The position numbers were made by a program, and so were the translations under genes. Positions 6,354-61,914 of a stretch of DNA of 64,000 bases are shown here, in pieces (position 1 is the stretch's first letter; the number at the start of each line of letters is the position of its first letter). Source of the stretch: Dictyobacter kobayashii (GTDB taxonomy: Bacteria > Chloroflexota > Ktedonobacteria > Ktedonobacterales > Ktedonobacteraceae); assembly GCF_003967555.1 (NCBI RefSeq), contig NZ_BIFS01000001.1, positions 4,402,001 through 4,466,000 on the forward strand, in the 5' to 3' direction. The notes below the pieces were generated by a model, which saw only the letters and a program-made list of their open reading frames with translations, did no database searches and had not been told where the DNA came from.

Positions 6354-6598
6354 AGGGCTTTTTTATGTTCGTCCAGAGAGCGCAAGGAGATCACGAGCAA
6401 GCGATAGGATGTCTATTCTTTCAGGCGTGGAGTTGTGGTGGGTGGCCGCAGCCTCCTCCCATCTGCAAACATGGAGAATTACGAGCAAGCGATACAAGGC
6501 CCATTCTTTCAGGCGTGGAGAGTGTGTGGTGGGCGGCCGCCCACCACACACTCCCAACCCGGCGCCGCAGGCGCCAAAGAGGAACATGAAAAAGCCCT
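6354..6598. repeat. MITE-like palindromic element, copy A
   Basis: Fills most of the 507-bp gap between divergent cca and the FHA gene. Terminal inverted repeats of 17 bp (6354-6370 and 6582-6598, one mismatch) have the form AGGGCTTTTTCATGTTC. The centre is a perfect 34-bp palindrome at 6520-6553. Copy A is longer than copies B (19224-19381) and C (28460-28630) because about 95 bp of the left half, including ACGAGCAAGCGAT and CATTCTTTCAGGCGTGGAG-like sequence, is present twice. Flanks carry CTGGCTATAT on the left and CTGACTATAT on the right, a possible target duplication. No open frame of note. Confidence 0.85.
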
Positions 6599-15811: not shown

Positions 15812-15958
15812 CAAAAAACACGTCCGAGTTACTGATTGCTCCAAAAAACATTCATGTGTTGTAGTTGGTTCAAAAAACACGTCCGAGTTACTGATTGCTC
15901 CAAAAAACATTCATGTGTTGTCGAAAGTGTGCGCAGAACACTTTCGACAACACATGAA
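15812..15958. repeat. 51-bp direct repeat plus 21-bp inverted repeat
   Basis: Within the 503-bp gap between divergent genes (15679-16181). A 51-bp sequence beginning CAAAAAACACGTCCGAG occurs at 15812-15862 and again, identical, at 15871-15921 (period 59 bp). The end of the second copy forms the left arm of a perfect 21-bp inverted repeat, 15910-15930 with 15938-15958, around a 7-nt spacer. A GC-rich, nearly pure C/G stretch follows at 15966-15990. The rest of the gap shows no gene; a GAGGAGG before 16182 is the next ribosome-binding site. Confidence 0.9.
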
Positions 15959-19224: not shown

Positions 19225-19381
19225 GGCTTTTTCATGCTTGTCCAGAGACTGCTAGCAAGCGATAAGATGGCATTCTTTCATGTGTGGAGTGTGTGAAGTG
19301 GGCGGCCGCGGCCGCCCACCTCACACACTCCACACTCCCAACTCGGCGCCGCAGGCGCCAAAGAGGAACATGAAAAAGCCC
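19224..19381. repeat. MITE-like palindromic element, copy B
   Basis: 158 bp between the DUF1501 terminator and the phytochrome gene. Ends are GGGCTTTTTCATG and its inverse CATGAAAAAGCCC. The centre is a near-perfect palindrome around GGCGGCCGCGGCCGCC with arms GAGTGTGTGAAGTGGG / CCCACCTCACACACTC (one mismatch). The sequence GGCGCCGCAGGCGCC near the right end is shared with copies A and C. Flanking direct repeats CTGACGTTTTTTGCTG (left) and CTGACGTTTTTGCTG (right) look like a target duplication of unusual length. The remaining 170 bp before 19551 show no gene. Confidence 0.85.
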
Positions 19382-51166: not shown

Positions 51167-51325
51167 TACCGCAGCACAAAAGACTGTGAAATGGAAGGGG
51201 ACGGAACGGAATAAACCTATTTCCGTTTGTGTTCTCTTCTATAGTAAGGTAAAGATAACAAGAGTTACTTGTACTTGATGTTAGACATCAGGATAGATTT
51301 GTTTGGAAAGTGAGTGAGAAGTACT

Positions 51326-51675
51326 ATGGAGAATGCTAATCTGTTTCACGTTGGCGATCAGGATTTTGATACCAAGGTTTTGAAGTCTTCAACCCCTGTT
51401 ATTGTTGATTTCTGGGCTGCCTGGTGTGGTCCTTGCCGCAACATCGCCCCTGTGTTTGAGCGCTTGAGCACTGAGTATCAGGGCAAGCTGCAATTCGCTA
51501 AAATGGATATCGATGAGCACGGTTTGACCCATCACGCCTTGGAATTCAGGCTATTCCAACCTTGTTGATCTTCAAAGATGGTCAGGCTATTGGTCGTCTT
51601 GTTGGTCCACAGCCCAGTCGCTTGAAAAGTGAAATTGATCGCGTTCTGGCCGAAAATGGCATTCAAGTCGCCTAA
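51326..51675 (+). pseudogene. trxA: Thioredoxin, interrupted by one missing base
   Basis: Thiol-disulfide oxidoreductase with an intact WCGPC active site ([16 protein letters not shown]). The frame runs from 51326 to a stop at 51566-51568 after [12 protein letters not shown]. Adding one base near 51540 (GCCTTGGAATTC) restores [14 protein letters not shown], the conserved cis-Pro region, and the normal C-terminus ending at 51675, with exactly the residue spacing of E. coli thioredoxin. Either a real -1 frameshift or a base dropped in sequencing. The frame is open to a GTG at 51314. Confidence 0.88.
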
Positions 51676-51681
51676 AATTTA

Positions 51682-51723
51682 AAATATGACCTGGTATATT
51701 CTCGAATTTACCAGGTCATATTT
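51682..51723 (+). terminator. Hairpin terminator after thioredoxin gene
   Basis: Perfect 15-bp stem AAATATGACCTGGTA / TACCAGGTCATATTT, 51682-51696 with 51709-51723. Its place right after the restored thioredoxin stop supports the full-length gene model. Confidence 0.8.
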
Positions 51724-51840
51724 CGTGTTTATTCAAATTTATTCTATTACCCCCTCGACTCTCTTCTCTTTTTGTGATATATTCTTCCCATAATGTTACA
51801 TATCCAAAAATTTGTTGTATGGACATAAGGGGAACCGTAT

Positions 51841-52583
51841 ATGCCAATATTAGAGCGCTCAAATCCTCTACCGCTTTACTATCAATTAAAAGAAGTGCTG
51901 AAGCAGCAGATTCGTGCGGGCACCTTGCACCTCATACCGCCATACCCTCTGAACCAGAACTGGTAACGCAGTATCATGTAAGCCGTGCAACCGTGCGTCA
52001 GGCTCTTACCGAGCTTGTCCATGAAGGCCTTCTATATCGCCAGCATGGACGTGGCACGTTCGTCTGTGAGCCGCGTGTACAGCAACAAACCATTAGTGAA
52101 CTAACAAGCCTTTCTGAAGAATTACGTCGTCGTGGGAAACGTCCGGGTGGAATGCTATTTGTAAGTGAATTGGTTCGTGGATCACAAACGGTTCGTGAAC
52201 AGCTGCGTTTGACCGACGAGGAACAGGTAATTCGTTTAGAGCGTTTGCGCACTGCTGATGATCAGCCGGTCGCCTATGAAGTGGATTACCTGCCATATCC
52301 ACGTGCAGCTGGTGTCTATCAGCGGGCGAAAGAAACAGCAGATGGATCTCTCTACAACTTGATGGCCTCGGAAGGATTGCAACCTTATATTGCTGAACAG
52401 TCGATTAAGGCCGATAGCGCATCTGCCCGTGAAGCCGAGTTGTTGCGTGTTTCTGAGAAAGAGTCTGGCCTACGCCTGTTTTGCACCGCCTTTGATGAGA
52501 CAGGGGCACCTATAGAGTACACGGAGTCTTTTTTCCCAGCGAGTTTGTATGAATTCCGTTTAACCTTGCGTGTTACAAAATAG
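51841..52583 (+). pseudogene. GntR-family (HutC/UTRA) regulator, interrupted by one missing base
   Basis: Transcription regulator with N-terminal winged helix and C-terminal UTRA effector domain. From ATG 51841 the frame reads PILERSNPLPLYYQLKEVL and stops after about 41 residues at 51966. One base added near 51930 (CACCTCAT) gives HPHTAIPSEPELVTQYHVSRATVRQAL, shown in part, the correct spacing for the GntR wing, and the rest of the protein with UTRA (IRLERLRTAD, YEVDYLP, YTESFFPAS). No stable start exists for the second part alone. It lies immediately left of the integrative element. Confidence 0.85.
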
Positions 52584-52632
52584 AAACGCGAGATGTTGCG
52601 CGTCACTAATACCACTTTATGGTTAAAAAATG

Positions 52633-52758
52633 AGCCATTGAGGAATAAAAACCTTGATGGCTATTCTTGTTGGATCGTTTTCAGTCCTTATTTCGTGAGT
52701 AGTTTTATAGAGTGCTTGTTATGAGGGTGAATCCAGCCATATGTGCTATACTACGCAA
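52633..52758 (+). repeat. Left end (attL-like) repeat region
   Basis: From AGCCA at 52633 to CGCAA at 52758, similar throughout to 60283-60407. Holds the 22-bp core, then GTTGGATCGTTT (52669-52680), GTCCTT, TCGTG and TATGTGCTATACTACGCAA (52740-52758). The last contains an extended -10 (TGCTATACT). AGCCA (52633-52637) can pair with TGGCT (52658-52662). Confidence 0.8.
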
Positions 52759-52820
52759 CTATTGGGTAGCGTGGATTGGCTCTACAGGCTGGTTCACGCT
52801 CTTTCTTTGCTTCCCAGGTG

Positions 52821-53630
52821 CTATACTTCCTGCTTTAGACGTTTGTTTTTCAATGATGGAACAAGAGGTTCTTCTTCTTGCTCCATTTGTTTTATAAATG
52901 CTTGTATGGGTCTGGTCGCGCTTTTGAGATCTGTTAGTATGTATGCATCCCTCTTTCCCTCAAGCTTTTTGAATCCCAGGTGTTCAACCAGTTTTTTGCC
53001 CTCTGGGGTTGCAGCGATCGCATACCATTTCTTGATGTCATAGTGTTTGTCGAGTGAGATAGCCCATCTTAAGGCATTCCTGATGATGTAGAGTCCTCTG
53101 TCCTTGTCCTTCTGCTTGTCACCTGTGTGGTGTATCGATATACTCGGTATATAGGCCGCCAGGTCTTTGTCTGACCATTTTCTTATGGACCAGGGTTCTA
53201 TATCTTGCTCCTTGATTCTGTCATCTATCAGCGATTTGATGACATCTTCTGCCAATGGCATGATTGTTACACCTCCAACTCTCTTCCCGTTCTCCCTGGC
53301 CGACATGAATATATCTTTGTTGGCATCCTTCCACTCTAAGAGCCGATCGTATGTAACAATGTCTTCAGGTTCGTACAGGTTGAAGTGGTTTTGATAGCTG
53401 GCCCATAGCTCGCTGTTGGTTGTTGGACCGAATGTGAGTTTGGGTTGATCCTTGCGTTTTTGTAGCTTTACGTGCGCGTTGATGGCTTCTTTTGGGTATT
53501 TCCTGCCTCTCTTCTTTCCTGGTTCTAACTCACTTGGTATTGTTCCGTCTTCCGCTCTCCTGTTTAACGTTGCTTTGGATATGCCAAGCAGCTTCATAAC
53601 CTCTTCAGGCGAATAGTATCGCTCCTCCAT
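52821..53630 (-). CDS. HTH regulator with GNAT-like C-terminal domain
   Basis: 269 aa. The N-terminus is a MerR/excisionase-type helix-turn-helix (YYSPEEVMKLLGISKATLNRR, in part) with the wing KKRGRKYPKEAI. The C-terminal 110 residues resemble an acetyltransferase fold (RGLYIIRNALRW, WYAIAATPEGKKLVEHLGFKKL, then a terminal beta strand), though the acetyl-CoA P-loop is not obvious. Probably the element's control gene, transcribed leftward away from the others. AAGGAGG lies 5 nt before ATG 53630. Three GTGATTTTTG repeats upstream are likely binding sites. Confidence 0.7.
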   Translation of the reverse strand: MEERYYSPEEVMKLLGISKATLNRRAEDGTIPSELEPGKKRGRKYPKEAINAHVKLQKRKDQPKLTFGPTTNSELWASYQNHFNLYEPEDIVTYDRLLEWKDANKDIFMSARENGKRVGGVTIMPLAEDVIKSLIDDRIKEQDIEPWSIRKWSDKDLAAYIPSISIHHTGDKQKDKDRGLYIIRNALRWAISLDKHYDIKKWYAIAATPEGKKLVEHLGFKKLEGKRDAYILTDLKSATRPIQAFIKQMEQEEEPLVPSLKNKRLKQEV

Positions 53631-53647
53631 TGCCGCCTCCTTTTCTA

Positions 53648-53746
53648 GTGATTTTTGATTTTTGCGACTAGAGTTATTGATATTGTAAGTCTTTTGGCTC
53701 AATTTGTCTAGTGATTTTTGAGTCTTAAACTCATATGTGATTTTTG
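53648..53746. promoter_or_regulatory. Three GTGATTTTTG direct repeats (candidate operator)
   Basis: Copies at 53648-53657, 53711-53720 and 53737-53746; the first two extend to CTAGTGATTTTTGA. The third abuts the -35 box of the rightward promoter, so a bound protein would compete with RNA polymerase. Confidence 0.65.
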
Positions 53747-53775
53747 TTGACAATATGATTTTAATGGTACATAAT
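53747..53775 (+). promoter_or_regulatory. Rightward sigma-70 promoter of the element
   Basis: TTGACA at 53747-53752, 17-bp spacer, CATAAT at 53770-53775. It would drive the small genes from 53830 on. Confidence 0.75.
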
Positions 53776-53829
53776 AGTTACATGAGTGTTGAGTATTGAG
53801 TCTTGAGAAGATTTGAGGAGAAAGATTTC

Positions 53830-53994
53830 TTGCAAAGTAGACATGCACTTAGTTTCACATTTTTACTGGTGTTACTGATCTTTGGTGTAGGGGCTTTCTA
53901 CTGTTTCTCTGTAGGAAATATTATTGGAGGTGCTATTAACGCTGCTGGTTTTCTGGCAATTGTAGGAGTGCTGGCTAGTGGTTGCCGCCACTAG
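53830..53994 (+). CDS. Small membrane protein 1 of the element
   Basis: 54 aa, two hydrophobic helices (SFTFLLVLLIFGVGAFYCF and GAINAAGFLAIVGVLA). TTG start with GAGGAG 9 nt upstream; the frame opens at another TTG at 53803 that has no ribosome-binding site. First gene after the rightward promoter. Function unknown; small two-helix proteins are common in plasmid and phage early regions. Confidence 0.55.
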   Translation: MQSRHALSFTFLLVLLIFGVGAFYCFSVGNIIGGAINAAGFLAIVGVLASGCRH

Positions 53995-54093
53995 CTCAGC
54001 GTATGAGATTAGTTTGTGTGTGTACAGTGACCAGTTCTCATGTTCGTAAGTATGCGGGCTGAGGCTGGATACGTCAAGAGAGGAGCTTTTCCT

Positions 54094-54285
54094 ATGACAA
54101 CATTCATTTTGTCACCTATGCAAGTTCTTCTAGTGCTCGGTGCCCTGGTACTTGCGTCTTTGATCTTTCGGGCGATGAAGCTGCGTTCCTTGCTGGTGGT
54201 GGCCGTTGTCGCCCTGGCTGTTCTGTTCTTGGTGAAATTTCAAGTCCCTGTAGTTCAGTTCTTTACCGTGTTCGCGCATCGCTAG
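54094..54285 (+). CDS. Small membrane protein 2 of the element
   Basis: 63 aa with two hydrophobic stretches (MQVLLVLGALVLASLIF and SLLVVAVVALAVLFLV) joined by RAMKLR, a positive-inside loop. AGAGGAG precedes ATG 54094; the frame is open to 54040. Not recognised. Confidence 0.62.
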   Translation: MTTFILSPMQVLLVLGALVLASLIFRAMKLRSLLVVAVVALAVLFLVKFQVPVVQFFTVFAHR

Positions 54286-54308
54286 GAGAGAAACTACTGG
54301 AGGTAACA

Positions 54309-54587
54309 ATGTCGTACAGCAATGAACGTGCTCGTAACCTGGTTCGTGCTCCTATGCCGGTTGCTCCTCGCACACCATTGAAGACGGTTCGCGATATTAA
54401 CAAAGCGATCGATCGCAATGTGAATGGTGGCAACTATGGGGTTTATTGCTCTCTCAATGGTGAAAAAAATTGCTCGTATGTACATCTGGTGCATCGTGTT
54501 TTTCATGCGCGAACGGTGCGCGGTGTGCTCCAAGTCAAATGTCAAAGTGGGTGGTTGGTTCCATCTCACGTTTGGGTTGAAGGTTAG
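54309..54587 (+). CDS. Unknown small protein of the element
   Basis: 92 aa, basic, soluble, GGAGG 6 nt before the ATG. It has a polar start (SNERARNLVRAPMPVAP) and a compact second half rich in Val, His and Cys (YCSLNGEKNCSYVHLVHRVFHAR). Three cysteines do not form a recognised metal motif. Follows the preceding gene by 23 bp, so same operon. Confidence 0.6.
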   Translation: MSYSNERARNLVRAPMPVAPRTPLKTVRDINKAIDRNVNGGNYGVYCSLNGEKNCSYVHLVHRVFHARTVRGVLQVKCQSGWLVPSHVWVEG

Positions 54588-54596
54588 GAGCATCAC

Positions 54597-54788
54597 ATGG
54601 GTTACTCAATCTTTAGCAGTAAACAAACGTGGTCCAGCCCTCGCTCGAAAGAGCTGGTACGCACCGATGTCGAGAATGAGCACCAGGCTCGGCAAGAAAT
54701 GGATCGGCTGCTCCGGCAAGGCCACAAGATCAACGGCGTGCTTCCAAATGATTCAGACCGTCCAGATGCTCGGCGTCGCCGCTCATAA
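54597..54788 (+). CDS. Unknown small protein of the element
   Basis: 63 aa, highly charged, ending DRPDARRRRS. A central helix (NEHQARQEMDRLLRQGHK) suggests a short coiled or DNA-associated protein. TAGGAG 6 nt upstream; 9 bp after the previous stop. Confidence 0.6.
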   Translation: MGYSIFSSKQTWSSPRSKELVRTDVENEHQARQEMDRLLRQGHKINGVLPNDSDRPDARRRRS

Positions 54789-54809
54789 CTGAGAAAAGAG
54801 GGAAACATT

Positions 54810-55010
54810 ATGGCACGAGGACGGAAAGAGGCAATTGCAGTGAGCGTGCTTCGAGAGATTTTGCTTGATCGGATTGCGATTGAACGCAAATTGAAACGCT
54901 TGATTCGGGATCAATTGGTGGAAGCGTCTCTCTTATCCATTGTGTTCAGTCGGCTGCAATTCTTTGAGGATGACATTCGCAATGCTCTTGATGAGCTGGA
55001 ACACGAATAA
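54810..55010 (+). CDS. Unknown small helical protein of the element
   Basis: 66 aa, begins ARGRKEAIAVSVLREILLDRIAIE and is helical throughout, basic then acidic. No family recognised. GAGGGA before the ATG. Could be a ribbon or helix DNA-binding or partner protein. Confidence 0.6.
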   Translation: MARGRKEAIAVSVLREILLDRIAIERKLKRLIRDQLVEASLLSIVFSRLQFFEDDIRNALDELEHE

Positions 55011-55108
55011 GGCTTGTGATTTTTCGATATGTTCAACCACTTGTTTTGATGTTCGTTTGTTCGCCCTGGGCACAGTGCTCCAGGCTAAAGAAAAAAGAGA
55101 GGTGTCTT

Positions 55109-55441
55109 ATGGCTTTTGAATTAACTGGTACTGTTAAATACGCTCGTCGCATGAAAGGCGAGGCTAAAGGCTCTGGTAAACCGTACGATTTCTTTTCCCT
55201 GATTGTCCTCGATCCTGACGAGGGTGAGCGTATTCCTTTACAGATGAGTTCGGATAGCCCTCAGTTTAAAGAGCTTTGCGATCGCGATCAAACCTTGATC
55301 GATCAGCCCATTAAGGTCATCATTCGCCGCTGCCTCCCTGGCACGAAAAAAGACAAAAACACCGGCCAGGAAACACCAACGGTGCGCTTCTTCATCAAGA
55401 AAGTCTTGTTCTCTACGGCTGCGCAACCTGCGTCCCGTTAG
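55109..55441 (+). CDS. Putative OB-fold-like small protein of the element
   Basis: 110 aa. Strand-rich start (FELTGTVKYARRMKGEAKGSGKPYDFFSLIVLD, in part) with a central helix (SPQFKELCDRDQTLI) and closing strands (IKVIIRRCLPG, VRFFIKKVLF) resembles short OB-fold single-strand DNA-binding proteins seen in phages and plasmids; this is inference from pattern only. AGAGAGG lies ahead of ATG 55109. Its place before the primase gene would suit an SSB role. Confidence 0.55.
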   Translation: MAFELTGTVKYARRMKGEAKGSGKPYDFFSLIVLDPDEGERIPLQMSSDSPQFKELCDRDQTLIDQPIKVIIRRCLPGTKKDKNTGQETPTVRFFIKKVLFSTAAQPASR

Positions 55442-55461
55442 TTCTGGAAAGGATACCGACT

Positions 55462-56241
55462 ATGCGCATAGCAATTGCTTTACATCTGCTCTGGAAGCGT
55501 TTTGAAATTGCCCTCTGTGCGCTCGTGGTGCCTGGACTCATTCTTGAGTCCAGCATCGCGAATGGGTGGGTGTACGGTGGGAACTTCGTGGGCTTCCTGC
55601 GTGGGTTGTTTCTTGATCTGGTCATTTACATTTGTGCTCGTCAGGCGTTTCTGCTGTACCGCAAGGGAAACAAAACAGGCTCCTTCATTATGGCTATGGT
55701 TTCCCTGAGCATCACCTATGTCAGTGCGGTCAATAACCTGGGGTGGGTGCTCTCTGGGCATGAAATGGCTGGTGTGCTTGGCTCTCTGAGTCAAATGATG
55801 GGCGCTGGTAGTCCACTCTACCGAGCGTATGAGTTTTCTCTTGCTGTGTGTCTCCCACTTTCCCTGCTCGCTATTGCCCTGGTCGACCTGGATCACTTCT
55901 TTGAGCACAGTATTAATCAAGATCACCTGGATAACCAGGCGATGCTTTCCGATGAACGGCGTATGCATCGGACCGCTTTCCTCAAAGCACAACGGGTCCA
56001 GAAGGGGACTATTCAAGAACAGTATCAAGAGATTGCGGAAGATCGTGCTCAAACCTTTGTCGACAAAGCGCGTGATGGTGATTTGACCTTTGGTGCTCAC
56101 ACGGCTGCGCATGACACCGACAAACTTGCTCAAGCGGCTTCCGTCAGGCAAATTGAACCTCCCGTTCAAGAGGTTCCTGGGACCGTGTGGCCGGCTGATG
56201 AACCTCGGCCAGCACAACAAGATTGGGCCGATTGGCGGTAG
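55462..56241 (+). CDS. Membrane protein of the element
   Basis: 259 aa with four hydrophobic helices in the first 150 residues (ALCALVVPGLILES, LFLDLVIYICARQAFLLY, SFIMAMVSLSITYVSAV, LAVCLPLSLLAIALV). The C-terminal 100 residues are soluble, Gln/His/Asp-rich, and end with WPADEPRPAQQDWADWR. No transfer-protein motif (no Walker box) is present. Similar architectures occur in plasmid-encoded proteins of unknown role. Confidence 0.65.
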   Translation: MRIAIALHLLWKRFEIALCALVVPGLILESSIANGWVYGGNFVGFLRGLFLDLVIYICARQAFLLYRKGNKTGSFIMAMVSLSITYVSAVNNLGWVLSGHEMAGVLGSLSQMMGAGSPLYRAYEFSLAVCLPLSLLAIALVDLDHFFEHSINQDHLDNQAMLSDERRMHRTAFLKAQRVQKGTIQEQYQEIAEDRAQTFVDKARDGDLTFGAHTAAHDTDKLAQAASVRQIEPPVQEVPGTVWPADEPRPAQQDWADWR

Positions 56242-56266
56242 GTGCCTGGTCGATGGTCTAAGAATG

Positions 56267-56300
56267 ACGCCAACCGTAGAACGCCAACCGTAGAACGCCA
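56267..56300. repeat. 14-bp tandem repeat
   Basis: ACGCCAACCGTAGA repeated 2.4 times at 56267-56300, between the membrane protein and primase genes. Possible iteron-like sequence near replication genes. Confidence 0.8.
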
Positions 56301-56353
56301 CTTGCCGGACGCCTGGGGACAGGCTCCGGCTTTCAGTGAAAGGAGCACATAGT

Positions 56354-57322
56354 ATGATTTCTCCTTCTCTTTACACTCGGTTTGCTGCCTTGTTTGTCGG
56401 TCGCTCTGATGATTATGCGCTTCAATGCCCCAACGGCTTATATCGGCGTGCAGGTCGCCCTCTTACCTCTGAAGTGCTTCATGCGCATTTGCAAGGGGAT
56501 TGCACTATTGGGACCTATGTCATCAATACACATGGGTCATGCTCGTTCGCGGTGATGGATGCCGATAAACCGGGCGGCTTGCGGCTGCTGGCCCAGGCGC
56601 AACAGGCGCTTGCTGCTGACGATATTCCTTCGTATCTGGAGCAGTCGCATCGTGAGGGGCATCTCTGGATCTTCCTCCGACAGCCAGCTCCCGCCGCGAC
56701 AGTCCGGTGGTGGCTGCGCCCCTATTGCCCTGAGGACATGGAATTTTTCCCAAAACAGGATCAGACGGACGGGTATGGATCGCTGATCCGGGTGCCCCTG
56801 GGTATCCATCTGCTGACAGGTCGCCGCTATCCCTTCATCACCCTGGACGGTGATCGGACGGTGCCGGTGGCTCCAACGTTTCATGACATGTTGCGCTGGC
56901 TCTGGCATGTGCGCCAGGTCGACGCGCCCACGTTCGATATCACTACTGTTCGCTCACAACGATCCACGCACGGAGCCGTCAACAAAAAAAAATCGATGAC
57001 CCAACCTGCTGCCCTACGATCCCGCTCGCCGTACGCCAACATTGCCGACTGGTGTGCGCGTCAAGATCCGTTCGCGCTCATCGGACACTATGTTGAGCTG
57101 AACCGGCAGGGCATGGGGCATTGTCCATTTGAGGATCATCATGCTGATGGCGAGGATCGGCGTTGTTCCTTCAAAGTGTTTCAGCCCTCCACGCCCGGCG
57201 GTATGTGTTGGTACTGCTACGCCTGGGGAAAAGGCGGCAGCGTGTTTGACTTTCTGCGCCTGTACTACCAGTTGGATGCTCGTGAGTTGTGGCATCGGCT
57301 TCAGGCCGGGGCGCATGTGTAA
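56354..57322 (+). CDS. Archaeo-eukaryotic-type primase with CHC2-like zinc finger
   Basis: 322 aa. Residues 55-160 match the AEP primase pattern seen in mobile elements and TOTE-type systems: metal-binding FAVMDAD (Asp69, Asp71), SHREGHLWIF (99-107), FFPKQD (131-136) and LIRVPLG (144-150). The C-terminal part has a DnaG-like zinc finger with Cys257, a His near 262, Cys285 and Cys288 (CPFEDHH and CWYCYAWGKGGSVFDFL). It probably makes replication primers for the element. ATG 56354 follows AAGGAGC. Confidence 0.8.
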   Translation: MISPSLYTRFAALFVGRSDDYALQCPNGLYRRAGRPLTSEVLHAHLQGDCTIGTYVINTHGSCSFAVMDADKPGGLRLLAQAQQALAADDIPSYLEQSHREGHLWIFLRQPAPAATVRWWLRPYCPEDMEFFPKQDQTDGYGSLIRVPLGIHLLTGRRYPFITLDGDRTVPVAPTFHDMLRWLWHVRQVDAPTFDITTVRSQRSTHGAVNKKKSMTQPAALRSRSPYANIADWCARQDPFALIGHYVELNRQGMGHCPFEDHHADGEDRRCSFKVFQPSTPGGMCWYCYAWGKGGSVFDFLRLYYQLDARELWHRLQAGAHV

Positions 57323-57331
57323 GGGGGATGT

Positions 57332-57658
57332 ATGCCGAATTATGGACAACCATTGCGGGACTGTGGCCCTGAAGATGGTGAAAGCATGGCAGGCTGGTTT
57401 GATGTGGCGCTCTGGTCGTATGGGCTGGCAGAGAACCGTTTTCCGCTCCATATGGGGTATATGCAGGCGTTGACAGCTTACCAGGCAATAGAAGACGCCA
57501 TGCGGTACTATGGGCTTCCTCGTGTGGGCTATGCGTGTGCGCGTGCGTTGGATGGGTCGATCTGCTATCGAGCCTATAAGGTGTTCGTGGTCATGGATGC
57601 GGTTCAGGACGATTGGGATTCTGAGTTTGATGCCCTGCTGCGCTCGGTGCAGTGGTAG
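57332..57658 (+). CDS. Unknown protein of the element
   Basis: 108 aa, 9 bp after the primase stop, with GGGGG before the ATG. Rich in Tyr and Trp (GWFDVALWSYGLAENRFPLH, AIEDAMRYYGLPRVGYACARA). Mixed alpha/beta appearance; not recognised. Probably works with the primase or Rep. Confidence 0.6.
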   Translation: MPNYGQPLRDCGPEDGESMAGWFDVALWSYGLAENRFPLHMGYMQALTAYQAIEDAMRYYGLPRVGYACARALDGSICYRAYKVFVVMDAVQDDWDSEFDALLRSVQW

Positions 57659-57670
57659 CGTGCTGGCTCT

Positions 57671-57700
57671 GAGCGGTCCCGTAAGTAAACCGGACCGCTC
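57671..57700 (+). terminator. Hairpin inside the element
   Basis: Perfect 9-bp stem GAGCGGTCC / GGACCGCTC with 12-nt loop followed by AAAA, between the 108-aa gene and rep. May end the primase operon. Confidence 0.6.
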
Positions 57701-57738
57701 AAAATACATCACTGGTTGCTTGGTGAAAGGATGGGCCT

Positions 57739-59228
57739 ATGAATGAGAGTATTGTGCGGATTTTAGGAGCTTTTTTAGATACGCTCTATCTGAATGTGTA
57801 TCAAACGGATACCAATTTTCAGGTGGTCAAGAAAAAACTGTCGGATGAGCTGAAGCTTGAGTTGCAGCAGTTAAAAGAGCAGGCGCAAGAGGATGAGGAA
57901 AATATTCCGACACGCTTTTCTTTTGATGGCAAACCATTGCTTATGATGATGAAGGGGAGTGAGGGTTTTAACTGGATCTTAAAGAATGAGAGTATCAATT
58001 TCTGCGTCAACCGTGGCTCGAAGATGAATCTGTGTGCCCAGGTGCGTTGTTCGTCGGAATACCTCTGGAAAAGGCGGGATATTAGCGCGATCGTTAATGA
58101 AGTATTTTTCTTTGCTACTCAGGTCTTTGGACAACAGATTTGTCTTCAGGTGTCGGCGCTTGACCTGGCTGTAGATGTCATCAATTTTCAACTGCCTTCT
58201 GCGGAAGATATTAAAGAGTGCTTTATCTCGCGTGCGCAATTGTCGGAAGAAGCCCCGGCCAACCTGGCTGATTGTTTTGTTGATGGCCCTGACCGCATTA
58301 AGCGTCGGTGGGGCGGATTACTGGCTTGCCGTTTGGTGCTCGTGGAGCTGCTATCTCTGGCATTATCTATGATAAAACGCACGAGATTAAATATCATTCT
58401 CCTGAAAAGTCCTGGCTCTTTGATCTCTGGGGTGAGTCTGCGCGTATTCAAGGTTTTGAGTATAGCGAAGATATGCAGGTCATGCGTCATGAAATGCGCT
58501 TCCGGCGTCCGGCTCTGCGGGAAATGAAGCAGGTCGCCCAGGTCGTCAAGGATGGCGAAGAGCATGAAGAAGTCTTGTTTCATGGGATTGAAGATGCGTT
58601 TCTGCTTGAAACCTACATTGCTGGTCTATGGGGGTATGCGGTCGGTCATGTCGATGGCGGTGCGGATGGCCTTCCTGATGGCTGGCTCCGCTATGTGATT
58701 CCTAGTGAGACAGATGTCAACCGCTCTCGCTGGGAAGTGCATCCAGATTGGCAGGTCATTCAATCGGCCTTTGCGGTTCCTGAGCTGGAAGAGTCTGAGT
58801 ATGAGTGTGAGGAACGGGAAAAAGAAGAGTTGCTATCTGAGGTTGATGCCTACCTGGAAGAGCATCCCTGGCAAGATGTTACTCCTCCTGTCAGGAAGAG
58901 AAAAAAGTCTGTGGTGAAACGACCTGATTATGTTGCTCCTGTAGTTGATCCGCTCCATTTTAACCTGGCTCCTTACATTCGGGAACGGAAACGGCATGTG
59001 CATATGGAACGGATGGTGGCCCAGCTGACCGGGTGCATGTCGACCTTTGAAGCCTGGCGGGCGCATTCCGACGATCGCTTACCTGGTGGTGTGCATGCTG
59101 ATCTCTCGGATACCTTGTCGGTCTACTACCGATTAGCAGAAACCTACATGTTGCAGCGACAGAAAGATTTTGCTGAAACTGTCCGTAAAAAACGGGTGCT
59201 CTATCACATTGTTGAATCTATAGCATAG
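57739..59228 (+). pseudogene. Rep-like replication initiator, interrupted by one missing base
   Basis: The first frame (57739-58527) holds VSALDLAVDV and ends abnormally; from about 58308 a second frame continues with RITGLPFGARGAAISGIIYDKTHEI, shown in part, KSWLFDLWG and RHEMRFRRPALREM. Together these are the usual order of plasmid and phage replication initiation proteins (LDLaVD, fG..g..sriYdKt.Ei, W..DlWg, R.E.rfr). One extra G in GGTGGGGCGG at about 58311 would join RRWG to RITG. The joined product would be 496 aa with an acidic C-terminal region. AAAGGA precedes the ATG. Confidence 0.72.
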
Positions 59229-59238
59229 GGGGTGTTCT

Positions 59239-60219
59239 ATGAGACTTGATGAGACTGTTGAGCATTACTTACGTAGCCTGATAACCCGGCGTCTTTCTAT
59301 TCATACTCAGCTGGCATATCGCCACGCTCTTGCGCTCCTAGTCCGATTGTTGGCGGATATATGCGGTGTGACCGATCTGGAGCGGGTTACAGTGCTTCAC
59401 CTTCGTCAGTGTGTGCAGCACCTTCTGACTGAATCTGTTGAGGTCCAGAAGTCGCGTCGGCCTCCTGGGAATGGCTCTACTCTGTCAGCTGGTAGCGTGT
59501 GCGATTATATCCGCCGTTGGAAGACCTTCTTTAATTGGTGTCAGCGCGAGGATCTCATAGAGAAAAATCCCGGTACTCGCCTGGAATATCCGAAGACTGA
59601 TGAGAGGATGATTGATGCATTTACTGTGAACCAGATTGAGCATATGATCAGCATTTTTGATCTCTCCACCCCTGAGGGTTTCCGTGATTATGTTATCTTG
59701 CTGCTGATGTTGGATACTGGTATTCGCCGCTCTGAGGTGGCTACCCTCCGGGTAGAGGATGTGCATGATACGTATATCGGGGTCTTTGGCAAGGGCCGTA
59801 AAGAGCGCCAGGTCGGCATTCATCCCGAAATAAGTAACCTGTTGTGGAAGTACATCCATAAGTATCGCCGTCCAGCTGATGGGGATGAGCCTATTCTTTT
59901 CCTCTCTGTTGGCCGTGGCCGGGTTGGTATGCCGTTTGGCCGTGGTGGCATGAATGCTTTAATCAGGCGGTTAAAGGCTGCGACTGGTATTGATGACGTG
60001 CGCTTGTCGGCTCACACATTCCGGCATACGTTTGCCTGTATGTATTTGGATGCGGGTGGTGATGTTTTCAGTCTTTCTCGTGAAATGGGTCATACAGATA
60101 TAAAAACAACTGAACGCTATCTGAGAAGTTTCACAAGTAAAAGGGCGCGTCTGCAACATGACTCGCATTCACCTATTAATAGCATAAAATTGCGTTCTCA
60201 CAAGAAACCGAAAAAGTGA
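59239..60219 (+). CDS. Tyrosine recombinase (integrase)
   Basis: 326 aa. The N-terminal SAM-like DNA-binding domain (HTQLAYRHAL, YIRRWKTFFNWCQRE) precedes a complete catalytic domain: Arg163 (TGIRRSE), Lys185 (GKGRKERQ), His259-x2-Arg262 (HTFRHTFA), His285 (MGHTDI) and Tyr294 (TTERYL). It lies 75 bp from the right-end core repeat, as expected for an integrase acting on attP. GGGGGTG before the ATG; the start follows the rep stop by 10 bp. Confidence 0.95.
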   Translation: MRLDETVEHYLRSLITRRLSIHTQLAYRHALALLVRLLADICGVTDLERVTVLHLRQCVQHLLTESVEVQKSRRPPGNGSTLSAGSVCDYIRRWKTFFNWCQREDLIEKNPGTRLEYPKTDERMIDAFTVNQIEHMISIFDLSTPEGFRDYVILLLMLDTGIRRSEVATLRVEDVHDTYIGVFGKGRKERQVGIHPEISNLLWKYIHKYRRPADGDEPILFLSVGRGRVGMPFGRGGMNALIRRLKAATGIDDVRLSAHTFRHTFACMYLDAGGDVFSLSREMGHTDIKTTERYLRSFTSKRARLQHDSHSPINSIKLRSHKKPKK

Positions 60220-60282
60220 AGTATAGCACCTGTGAGGGCGTTTTGAGGTGATATACTAATCCCCGTTTTAGGGGCAAAAACA

Positions 60283-60407
60283 AGCCACTGGGGGATAAAA
60301 ACCTTGATGGCTATTCGCGTTGGATCGTTTCGTGTCCTTGGTTCGTGGGTATGTGTATGAGGCGGTTTTCGTGAGTGAAAAAGGTGTATATGTGCTATAC
60401 TACGCAA
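60283..60407 (+). repeat. Right end (attR-like) repeat region and TPR promoter
   Basis: Counterpart of 52633-52758. Contains the 22-bp core (60295-60316), GTTGGATCGTTT (60319-60330) and TATGTGCTATACTACGCAA (60389-60407) with an extended -10 TGCTATACT that probably serves the TPR gene at 60469. AGCCA (60283-60287) can pair with TGGCT (60308-60312), and CCCC/GGGG (60261-60264, 60271-60274) form a hairpin just before it. Confidence 0.8.
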
Positions 60408-60468
60408 GGATTTACCGTGTATTCCTGCGAACAGTACAATGTGAAGTATAGAGGAAAGTAGGCCATGT

Positions 60469-61914
60469 ATGAGTAACATGCAAGATGAACCTAATGCAAA
60501 TACGAATAATAGTAGTAGCGTACCCATGCATTTTGTGAAGCGTAGCGATATGGCTCGTGATGAGCAGTCATGGACCGATCGGGGTAATACAGCCGCTCAG
60601 GAAGGGGATTACGAAACCGCAGCAGAGGCTTTTGCGCAGGCGGTTGAAGTTAGTCCCAACAATGCTCGTGCCCGCTATAATCTGGCACTGGCCCAACAAT
60701 ATCTGGGGGATGTCGAGACCGCGATTGCTGGCTATCGCCGTGCTATCGATCTAGATCCACAGTTGATCGATGCCTATATCAACCTGGGAAATCTTTACGG
60801 GGAACTTGGTTTGTATGAGGAGTCCCTGGAAACCTTCCAGCAGGCGATTGAATTGGATCCTGAAAATGATGAGCTCTATTTGAGCGTCGGCGATGCATAT
60901 CGTACGCAGAACTTGTATCAAGATGCTATTCAAGCATATCGCCAGACGCTGATGCTCAATTCTGATAATGCATCAGCTAGCAATAATCTGCTTGATGTTC
61001 GTGAGAGGGTCAATGATCAGTGGCGCCGTGTGATGGAGCAAGAGCATAAGATCGATGAGGACCCGACCGATCCCGCTCGCTATTCCGAACTGTCGAGCAT
61101 CTATCTGGATATGCGCCGCTATGATGATGCTCTGTCGACTGCTAATCAAATTCTGACACTGGATCCAGAGGGACGCATTGGCTATGATGCGCTGGCATCT
61201 ATCTATGAGCAGATGGGCGAGCGCGATCAGGCGGCTGAGATCTATAGTCAGATCGTAGCGATTGATCCTGAAGATGCTGAGGCCTGGGAGCACCTGGGAA
61301 CCTGGCGTTCTATTCAGGGCAATAATGATGAGGCTATTGAGGCCTATAATCGTTCCATCCAGATTGATCCTCAACGCGCCACAACACGCTTTAGCCTGGC
61401 CGAGACCTATTTAGAGAGCGAGCGCTACGATGAAGCCCTGGCGATCTATCAGGGATTGGTTGAGAGCGCTGATCGTAGCGAACTGCAGTTAGATGATCTG
61501 GCGGCGGCCTATGCTGGCCTGGCTGAGACCTATAACTCTCTGGGGCGCTATGAAGAGGCTATACAAACGGCTGAGAAGCTGCTAGAACGCTCTGAGGATG
61601 ATCCAGAGGGGTATTACCAGCTGGCAACTGCATATGACGCTCTAGGACGCTATCCTGAGGCTATTGAGAATTATCAAAACGCCATCGAGAGCGATCCTTT
61701 GAACGCTGATTATTACAATGATCTGGCCGATACATTGCGTGAAGTCAAGCGCTATGATGAGGCTTTGGATACTGTACAGCAGGCAATTTCAATGGACCCC
61801 TCGATGATTCTGGCTTATGAAACGATGGCACAAATCTATGAGGCGACTGGACGTGCCGATGAGGCTGCTGAGGCAATGAGCCAGGCCAATGCTTTACGCT
61901 CAGTTTCAGAGTAA
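60469..61914 (+). CDS. Tetratricopeptide-repeat protein
   Basis: 481 aa, soluble, made of about 12 TPR units of 34 residues from residue 35 to the end, for example RARYNLALAQQYLGDVETAI and DAYINLGNLYGELGLYEESL. TPR arrays bind other proteins; no enzymatic domain is attached. The start has GAGGAAAG about 10 nt upstream. It is the first host gene right of the element and its promoter lies within the right-end repeat. A textbook terminator follows. Confidence 0.93.
   Translation: MSNMQDEPNANTNNSSSVPMHFVKRSDMARDEQSWTDRGNTAAQEGDYETAAEAFAQAVEVSPNNARARYNLALAQQYLGDVETAIAGYRRAIDLDPQLIDAYINLGNLYGELGLYEESLETFQQAIELDPENDELYLSVGDAYRTQNLYQDAIQAYRQTLMLNSDNASASNNLLDVRERVNDQWRRVMEQEHKIDEDPTDPARYSELSSIYLDMRRYDDALSTANQILTLDPEGRIGYDALASIYEQMGERDQAAEIYSQIVAIDPEDAEAWEHLGTWRSIQGNNDEAIEAYNRSIQIDPQRATTRFSLAETYLESERYDEALAIYQGLVESADRSELQLDDLAAAYAGLAETYNSLGRYEEAIQTAEKLLERSEDDPEGYYQLATAYDALGRYPEAIENYQNAIESDPLNADYYNDLADTLREVKRYDEALDTVQQAISMDPSMILAYETMAQIYEATGRADEAAEAMSQANALRSVSE

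Follow-up and report, generated by a model that had tools for sequence, protein, structure and literature searches.

A probable integrative plasmid-like element with an AEP primase and a Rep_trans-type initiator in Dictyobacter kobayashii, and its relatives in Ktedonobacteria

Gene content of the element

A 64,000-nucleotide stretch of the Dictyobacter kobayashii chromosome (contig NZ_BIFS01000001.1, positions 4,402,001 to 4,466,000; hereafter the window) carries, between a GntR-family gene on the left and a tetratricopeptide repeat (TPR) gene on the right, a compact gene set. We consider it quite likely that this set is a plasmid-like element of about 7,649 bp that integrates and replicates itself, with the attachment (att) core and the Rep-driven cycle proposed below. 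Its features are collected in Table 1; related genomes and loci are cited by our G and L numbers. A first-pass annotation of the window had listed a divergent helix-turn-helix (HTH) regulator, small proteins, a zinc-finger primase, a Rep-like protein and a tyrosine integrase placed at one end, and this gene set was borne out by Pfam searches and the open reading frames (ORFs). The operator-like repeats that it had also reported are present as a pair at 53641-53663 and 53704-53726.

Table 1. Features of the element and its flanks in the window
Feature	Position	Strand	Evidence
Probable scar of a previous element, since lost: terminator and integrase arm	52605..52738	+	72-74% identical to 60255-60387; absent from G001, G002, G004 empty sites
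Left att core (attL), ATATGTGCTATACTACGCAA	52739..52758	+	Exact 20-bp repeat with 60388-60407; core kept in relatives' empty sites
Left (P') arm: TGGCTCTACAGG-type motif and core-like motif GGTGCTATACTTC	52775..52829	+	Order matches left arms of sister elements
Divergent regulator, HTH_17/excisionase-like N-terminus, 270 aa	52821..53633	-	Pfam HTH_17 3.5e-8; weak excisionase match; PHROG excisionase/regulator 7e-6
Operator-like repeats CTAGTGATTTTTGA (two copies) and promoter-like TTGACA-17-CATAAT (53747-53775)	53641..53775	+	Sequence
Five small ORFs, two apparently single-span membrane proteins	53803..55010	+	o53803, o54091, o54597 78-85% identical in D. vulcani element L025
Single-stranded DNA-binding protein (SSB, OB fold)	55109..55441	+	AlphaFold pLDDT 85.7; best Foldseek matches are bacterial SSBs, E 6e-5
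Membrane protein of family F10, multi-span, with a cytoplasmic tail	55462..56241	+	
AEP primase (PrimPol-like) with CHC2 zinc finger	56354..57322	+	AEP-TOTE 4e-21; Zn_ribbon_DnaG 4e-6; PDB 7nqf/7nqd 2e-26
Small conserved protein, family F7	57332..57658	+	
Candidate rolling-circle origin: hairpin TGAGCGGTCC-CGTAAGTAAACC-GGACCGCTCA, then AAATAC	57670..57701	+	Conserved loop AGTAA, covarying stems, position directly upstream of rep
rep: Rep_trans-type rolling-circle initiator (by fold), split by one-base frameshift at ~58305	57739..59228	+	Intact D. aurantiacus homologue 87%/82%; fold 4CIJ E 8.5e-10
Tyrosine integrase (int), 326 aa	59239..60219	+	Phage_integrase 6.5e-26; relatives in other family genomes
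Right (P) arm: inverted pair, core-like motifs AGTATAGCACC / GGTGATATACTAA	60220..60259	+	Sequence
Terminator-like hairpin downstream of int	60282..60316	+	3' half is right 22-bp repeat; counterpart in L034/L071 is a perfect hairpin with T-run
Right att core (attR)	60388..60407	+	Overlaps conserved promoter-like box of TPR gene at 60469; right-flank homology from 60392

The element is of mosaic origin. Its regulator is 95% like one in D. vulcani and its middle genes are 72-85% like those of the D. vulcani element L025, whose Rep and integrase are different (~27% against those of the window), whereas the window's Rep is 82-87% like that of D. aurantiacus and its integrase 70% like that of element L071 of genome G004. 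The earlier statement that transfer genes are lacking held: Pfam found no FtsK/SpoIIIE-type Tra among 10 window proteins, no Walker A P-loop pattern occurs among the ORFs of the 15 elements of the family described below, and neither a relaxase other than Rep nor a coupling protein was seen in the element. Scanned against PHROG, the main proteins of the window gave matches to an integrase, a primase and an excisionase-like protein only, and no convincing candidate for a defence gene was found. The window has no tRNA gene that could serve as the insertion site and no Rfam family, and in eight related loci the only Rfam families were tRNA and tmRNA.

Attachment cores and empty sites

The ends of the element had been placed at an exact 22-bp direct repeat (ATAAAAACCTTGATGGCTATTC), which is indeed present at 52645-52666 and 60295-60316 with an offset of 7650; the calculated chance expectation for 22-bp pairs in 64 kb is ~1e-4. 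With up to 3 mismatches allowed, the 22-mer has no other copy in its own genome and a single one among 24 relatives, in G003, where it lies at this same host locus, so it is not a repeat that occurs widely without the element. These 22 bp lie inside a longer direct repeat of ~155 bp (52605-52763 and 60255-60412, ~72-74% identical), which also holds a second exact pair, the 20-bp ATATGTGCTATACTACGCAA, with an offset of 7649.

Comparison with related genomes bears on the choice between the two pairs. The GntR-family gene and the TPR gene are adjacent in all same-genus genomes checked, and in G001, G002 and G004 the gap between them is empty, with no trace of the 22-mer and with GTGCTATACTACGC upstream of the TPR gene. 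The same GTGCTATACTACGC was found upstream of TPR in G005 and G008, and in slightly varied form in G007 and G003. GTGCTATACTACGC forms part of the 20-bp repeat, and where relatives lack the element it is a conserved, promoter-like box in front of the TPR gene. Homology of the right flank to the empty sites starts at 60392, within the GTGCTATACTACGC box, and host homology on the left ends at ~52604-52612, so that the crossover most likely falls within the 20-bp core. Since the 22-mer is absent from the sister empty sites and GTGCTATACTACGC is present there, the 20-bp repeat appears to be the true attachment core, which would move the limits of the element to ~52739..60387/60407.

We therefore consider it improbable that the element runs from 52645 to 60316 with the 22-bp repeat as its attachment core, even though the pair contains no longer exact repeat and the 22-mer is very rare among relatives. 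Besides its absence from the three empty sites, on which it was rejected as a core, the stretch 60317-60391, which would be host DNA in that case, was not found there either. The 22-mer itself forms the 3' half of a terminator-like hairpin ~60 bases past the integrase gene, and the cores of sister elements lie past their counterpart terminator. The circle junction and empty site that the first-pass annotation had built on the 22-mer are likewise not supported. The junction predicted from the 20-bp core is GGTGT-ATATGTGCTATACTACGCAA-CTATTGGG, also written GGTGT-ATATGTGCTATACTACGCAA-CTATTGGGTAGC, with 60387 joined to 52739, and the predicted empty site is CCAGCC-ATATGTGCTATACTACGCAA-GGATTTACC, with 52738 joined to 60388.

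The region 52605-52738, which holds the left 22-bp repeat, resembles the element's own right arm rather than host DNA. Read most simply, it is probably the right end of a previous element that has lost its body; the terminator arm that stayed behind as a scar would account for the conspicuous 22-bp repeat. At the same locus in G003, an integrase-end remnant with terminator and core lies beside the TPR gene and a further terminator arm beside the GntR gene, and a terminator-arm-like scar also remains at the "empty" L071 target site in G002. Because of these comparable scars, one site has likely been repeatedly invaded and then vacated. In G003 (C1, ~3340865-3342222; L085) the two terminator-arm scars flank an apparent hicAB toxin-antitoxin pair. 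A 75-bp extension of the repeat at L071 was considered as a copy of the host promoter and set aside, the empty-site comparison being ambiguous and a scar being present in G002.

In the predicted circle, the stop codon of int is followed by the inverted core-like pair, the terminator, an arm, the core, the other arm and a core-like motif. The elements L071, L072 and L073 repeat a comparable arm order, each with its own motif, and such motifs are as expected for putative integrase binding sites.

Rep initiator and candidate origin

The Rep of the window was studied through its D. aurantiacus homologue, which shows 87% and 82% identity with the two parts of the split frame and was modelled with a pLDDT of 76.7. 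The best Foldseek matches of the model were RepSTK1 (4CIJ, E 8.5e-10) and RepDE (4CWE, 1.6e-6). Eleven Rep sequences share the invariant residues D15, D147, Y212-x-K214-xx-E217 and E253. Acidic residues and a Y-x-K-x-x-E motif matter in the MOBT relaxase RelSt3 (PMC6499999), and the Rep invariants correspond to this MOBT/Rep_trans catalytic set, including its three metal-binding acids, which are assigned by motif order. The predicted fold thus points to a Rep_trans-type rolling-circle initiator that has kept its catalytic set.

A hairpin lies just upstream of rep in nearly all Rep-bearing members inspected, with a loop of 9-13 nt containing AGTAA and a tail that usually contains TAC. Its stems vary in sequence, yet across the 13 distinct arm pairs 88 of 91 arm positions are paired. 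Seven positions each show 2-4 kinds of base pair, and none of 5000 re-pairing controls reached the observed pairing. A simple shuffle of the window gives an expectation of 0.5 such hairpins per 64 kb, against three in the window, one of them at rep. The hairpin at 57670-57701 is accordingly named here as a candidate replication origin. An apparently conserved ORF family (F5) proved to be a spurious translation of the conserved DNA that bears the hairpin.

Rep_trans initiators and MOBT relaxases have a common fold and catalytic residues (PMC6499999), all of which are present in Rep. Hence the element could also be a mobilizable element (integrative and mobilizable element, IME) in which Rep serves as a MOBT-type relaxase/initiator, the hairpin is the origin of transfer (oriT) and the pore comes from a co-resident conjugative element. 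This would be compatible with a self-replicating element and would add a transfer role to it; the SLT transglycosylase and membrane proteins encoded by some relatives speak in the same direction. We regard it as rather unlikely, given that a coupling protein is missing, that the Walker A pattern occurs in 0 of the 15 elements, and that the hairpin lies upstream of rep and beside the primase, as for a replication origin. The SLT transglycosylase (family F8) was observed near the membrane protein in L075, L137, L139 and others, and could be a hint at DNA crossing the cell envelope.

Several points weigh against the interpretation as a self-replicating element. Sequence similarity between Rep and Rep_trans is very weak: PF02486 was not found above its cut-off, the only match (E 0.013, below the gathering score) being in L079, with none in the close homologue, and a PDB sequence search with the Rep alignment gave no match. 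The TM-score of the fold match is moderate (0.34/0.58). The hairpins were chosen partly by their stems, which inflates the pairing score, so that the independent evidence consists of loop, tail and position. The rep frame of the window is interrupted by a one-base shift in a G-run.

The interrupted rep, together with the scars at the locus as signs of repeated decay, might suggest a degenerate, immobile remnant retained by chance. The genes for the integrase, primase, SSB and regulator are open, however, and the core repeat is still exact. One-base frameshifts also occur within 7 kb in the adjacent host genes for thioredoxin (51314-51700) and the GntR-family protein (51774-52583), as judged against sister genomes or the genes' own continuing frame; since these neighbours are shifted too, the shift in rep is likely an assembly indel error, and we think it unlikely that the element is a remnant. 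Elsewhere in the window, further exact direct and inverted repeats were seen at 15812-15905, 6520-6582 and 19298-19366.

A family of related elements in Ktedonobacteria

Relatives of the integrase were collected at E < 1e-50, and repeats were sought behind int and at the opposite end. Such integrases occur in 9 of 29 family genomes, with at most four per genome, and 15 elements were found to have a common gene order with variable parts: divergent HTH, SSB, membrane protein, AEP primase, Rep and integrase. These relatives are integrated at tRNA genes or at promoter-like sites. The tRNA-site members have repeats of 38-61 bp, and most of the others have exact cores of 13-17 bp with unrelated flanks.

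Cores were also compared with empty sites at the rplI, clpB and L071 loci. The core of L039, at the rplI site of the window's own genome, is CATTATAGGTGAGAA, which is identical in the G014 empty site and has 1-2 mismatches in G001-G004. At the clpB locus, ATTATATCAC was found in G000, G001 and G004, with a near version in G003, and at the L071 locus TGCTATACTA was present in all seven relatives examined. The window and L071 integrases share TGCTATACTA at two different genes. One strand of the core carries a -10-like box at four checked sites (TATACT, TATACT, TATAAT, TATAAT), which in AT-rich cores may partly be chance. As a genome-wide promoter motif TGCTATACTA showed no enrichment over the reversed control (23 vs 20 in G000), so that support for the promoter reading comes from the sites one by one. 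L071 itself (G004:C1:3550500-3570000) is an 18-kb relative whose apparent cargo is a large restriction-methylase-like protein (Type_ISP_C) and a flavin adenine dinucleotide (FAD) oxidoreductase.

A pattern scan of 84,980 species, which was not exhaustive, found relatives of the primase in Ktedonobacteria only, and searches of plasmids, phages and viral contigs gave no relatives beyond weak primase-domain matches. A phage satellite or inovirus-like prophage is a very improbable identity for the element. Its small size, Rep_trans-type initiator, SSB and small membrane proteins recall filamentous phages, and the divergent regulator and primase recall phage satellites, but Pfam, PHROG and the P-loop pattern revealed no morphogenesis ATPase (Zot-like), capsid or packaging gene, and relatives are lacking in phage genomes (primase) and viral contigs (Rep).

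Three members of 4.2-4.3 kb (L074 and L080 in G002, L081 in G004) possess the regulator and integrase, and profile searches with E up to 10 detected no Rep in them. Their hairpin with a 10-bp stem, GCACCCCACG-AAACCAGTAACA-CGTGGGGTGC, is base for base that of the Rep-bearing L076 (G002) and L075 (G004). This identity suggests, as a natural inference, that the Rep-less elements may be satellites that would be replicated in trans by the Rep of a sibling.

Proposed cycle

The view of an integrative plasmid-like element, which the first-pass annotation had already put forward, agrees with the empty host locus in sister genomes, the relatives elsewhere with direct repeats of their own and the rolling-circle fold of Rep. 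We infer that the element alternates between an integrated and a circular state. In the proposed cycle, the tyrosine integrase would recombine the attP of the circular form with a 13-20 bp core that lies in the host TPR gene's promoter region, and the probable role of the HTH protein is that of operon repressor or excisionase. The excised circle would replicate by the rolling-circle mode, Rep nicking the hairpin, while the displaced strand would be covered by SSB and primed by the primase. The terminator behind int would shield the host gene; left as a scar by an earlier element at the same site, its arm would have given rise to the 22-bp repeat. Because no transfer genes were found, spread would depend on outside help.

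Comparison with known systems and significance

According to a survey, actinomycete integrative and conjugative elements (AICEs) such as pSAM2 and SLP1 occur only in Actinomycetales (PMC3218068). The element resembles them in tyrosine-recombinase chromosomal integration, a rolling-circle Rep, a PrimPol-type primase and filamentous soil hosts. It differs in lacking an FtsK/SpoIIIE Tra, in a Rep that is Rep_trans-type by fold instead of RepSA/RepAM, in a primase of the AEP-TOTE/CRISPR-PrimPol type (PF22548) instead of PF09250, and in its hosts, which are Chloroflexota (Dictyobacter). It appears to work in an AICE-like manner in replication and integration, yet, having no Tra, it is not an AICE. 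With IMEs that have MOBT/Rep_trans relaxases (PMC7563843, PMC6499999) it shares the Rep_trans-type initiator with the same catalytic residues, site-specific integration by its own integrase and the lack of a pore of its own, but it has an AEP primase, an SSB and a hairpin directly upstream of rep, and an oriT would be hypothetical.

The Rep fold (4CIJ, 4CWE) links the element to the pT181/pSTK1 rolling-circle plasmids (RepC, RepD, RepSTK1), from which it differs in being integrative, in having a primase, SSB and integrase, and in a Rep of ~500-650 aa with an extra C-terminal region. Reps of the pT181/pSTK1 type nick in the loop of the origin hairpin. TnGBS integrative and conjugative elements, which likewise target promoter regions, use a DDE transposase and have no att core. 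Their insertion near promoters has been described (PMC3942029). A literature search found no published account of the element family; in the parts consulted, the genome report of D. kobayashii Uno11 (PMC13289182) mentions integrases only within its counts of mobility genes.

More broadly, and tentatively, Ktedonobacteria may hold a self-contained class of non-conjugative integrative replicons with an integrase, a Rep_trans initiator, an AEP primase, an SSB and a hairpin origin, some targeting promoter -10 boxes by means of a tyrosine integrase, along with 4.2-kb Rep-less satellites that carry the same hairpin and would depend for their copying on the Rep of larger elements in the same host. 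Ktedonobacteria are large-genomed, metabolite-rich soil bacteria whose mobile elements have been little described, and the family found here unites a Firmicutes-plasmid type of initiator with an AEP primase in an AICE-like layout. Through its Rep-less members, parasitism by one integrative element on the replication of another becomes directly testable, and the corrected att cores provide usable integration sites for genetics in Ktedonobacteria hosts.

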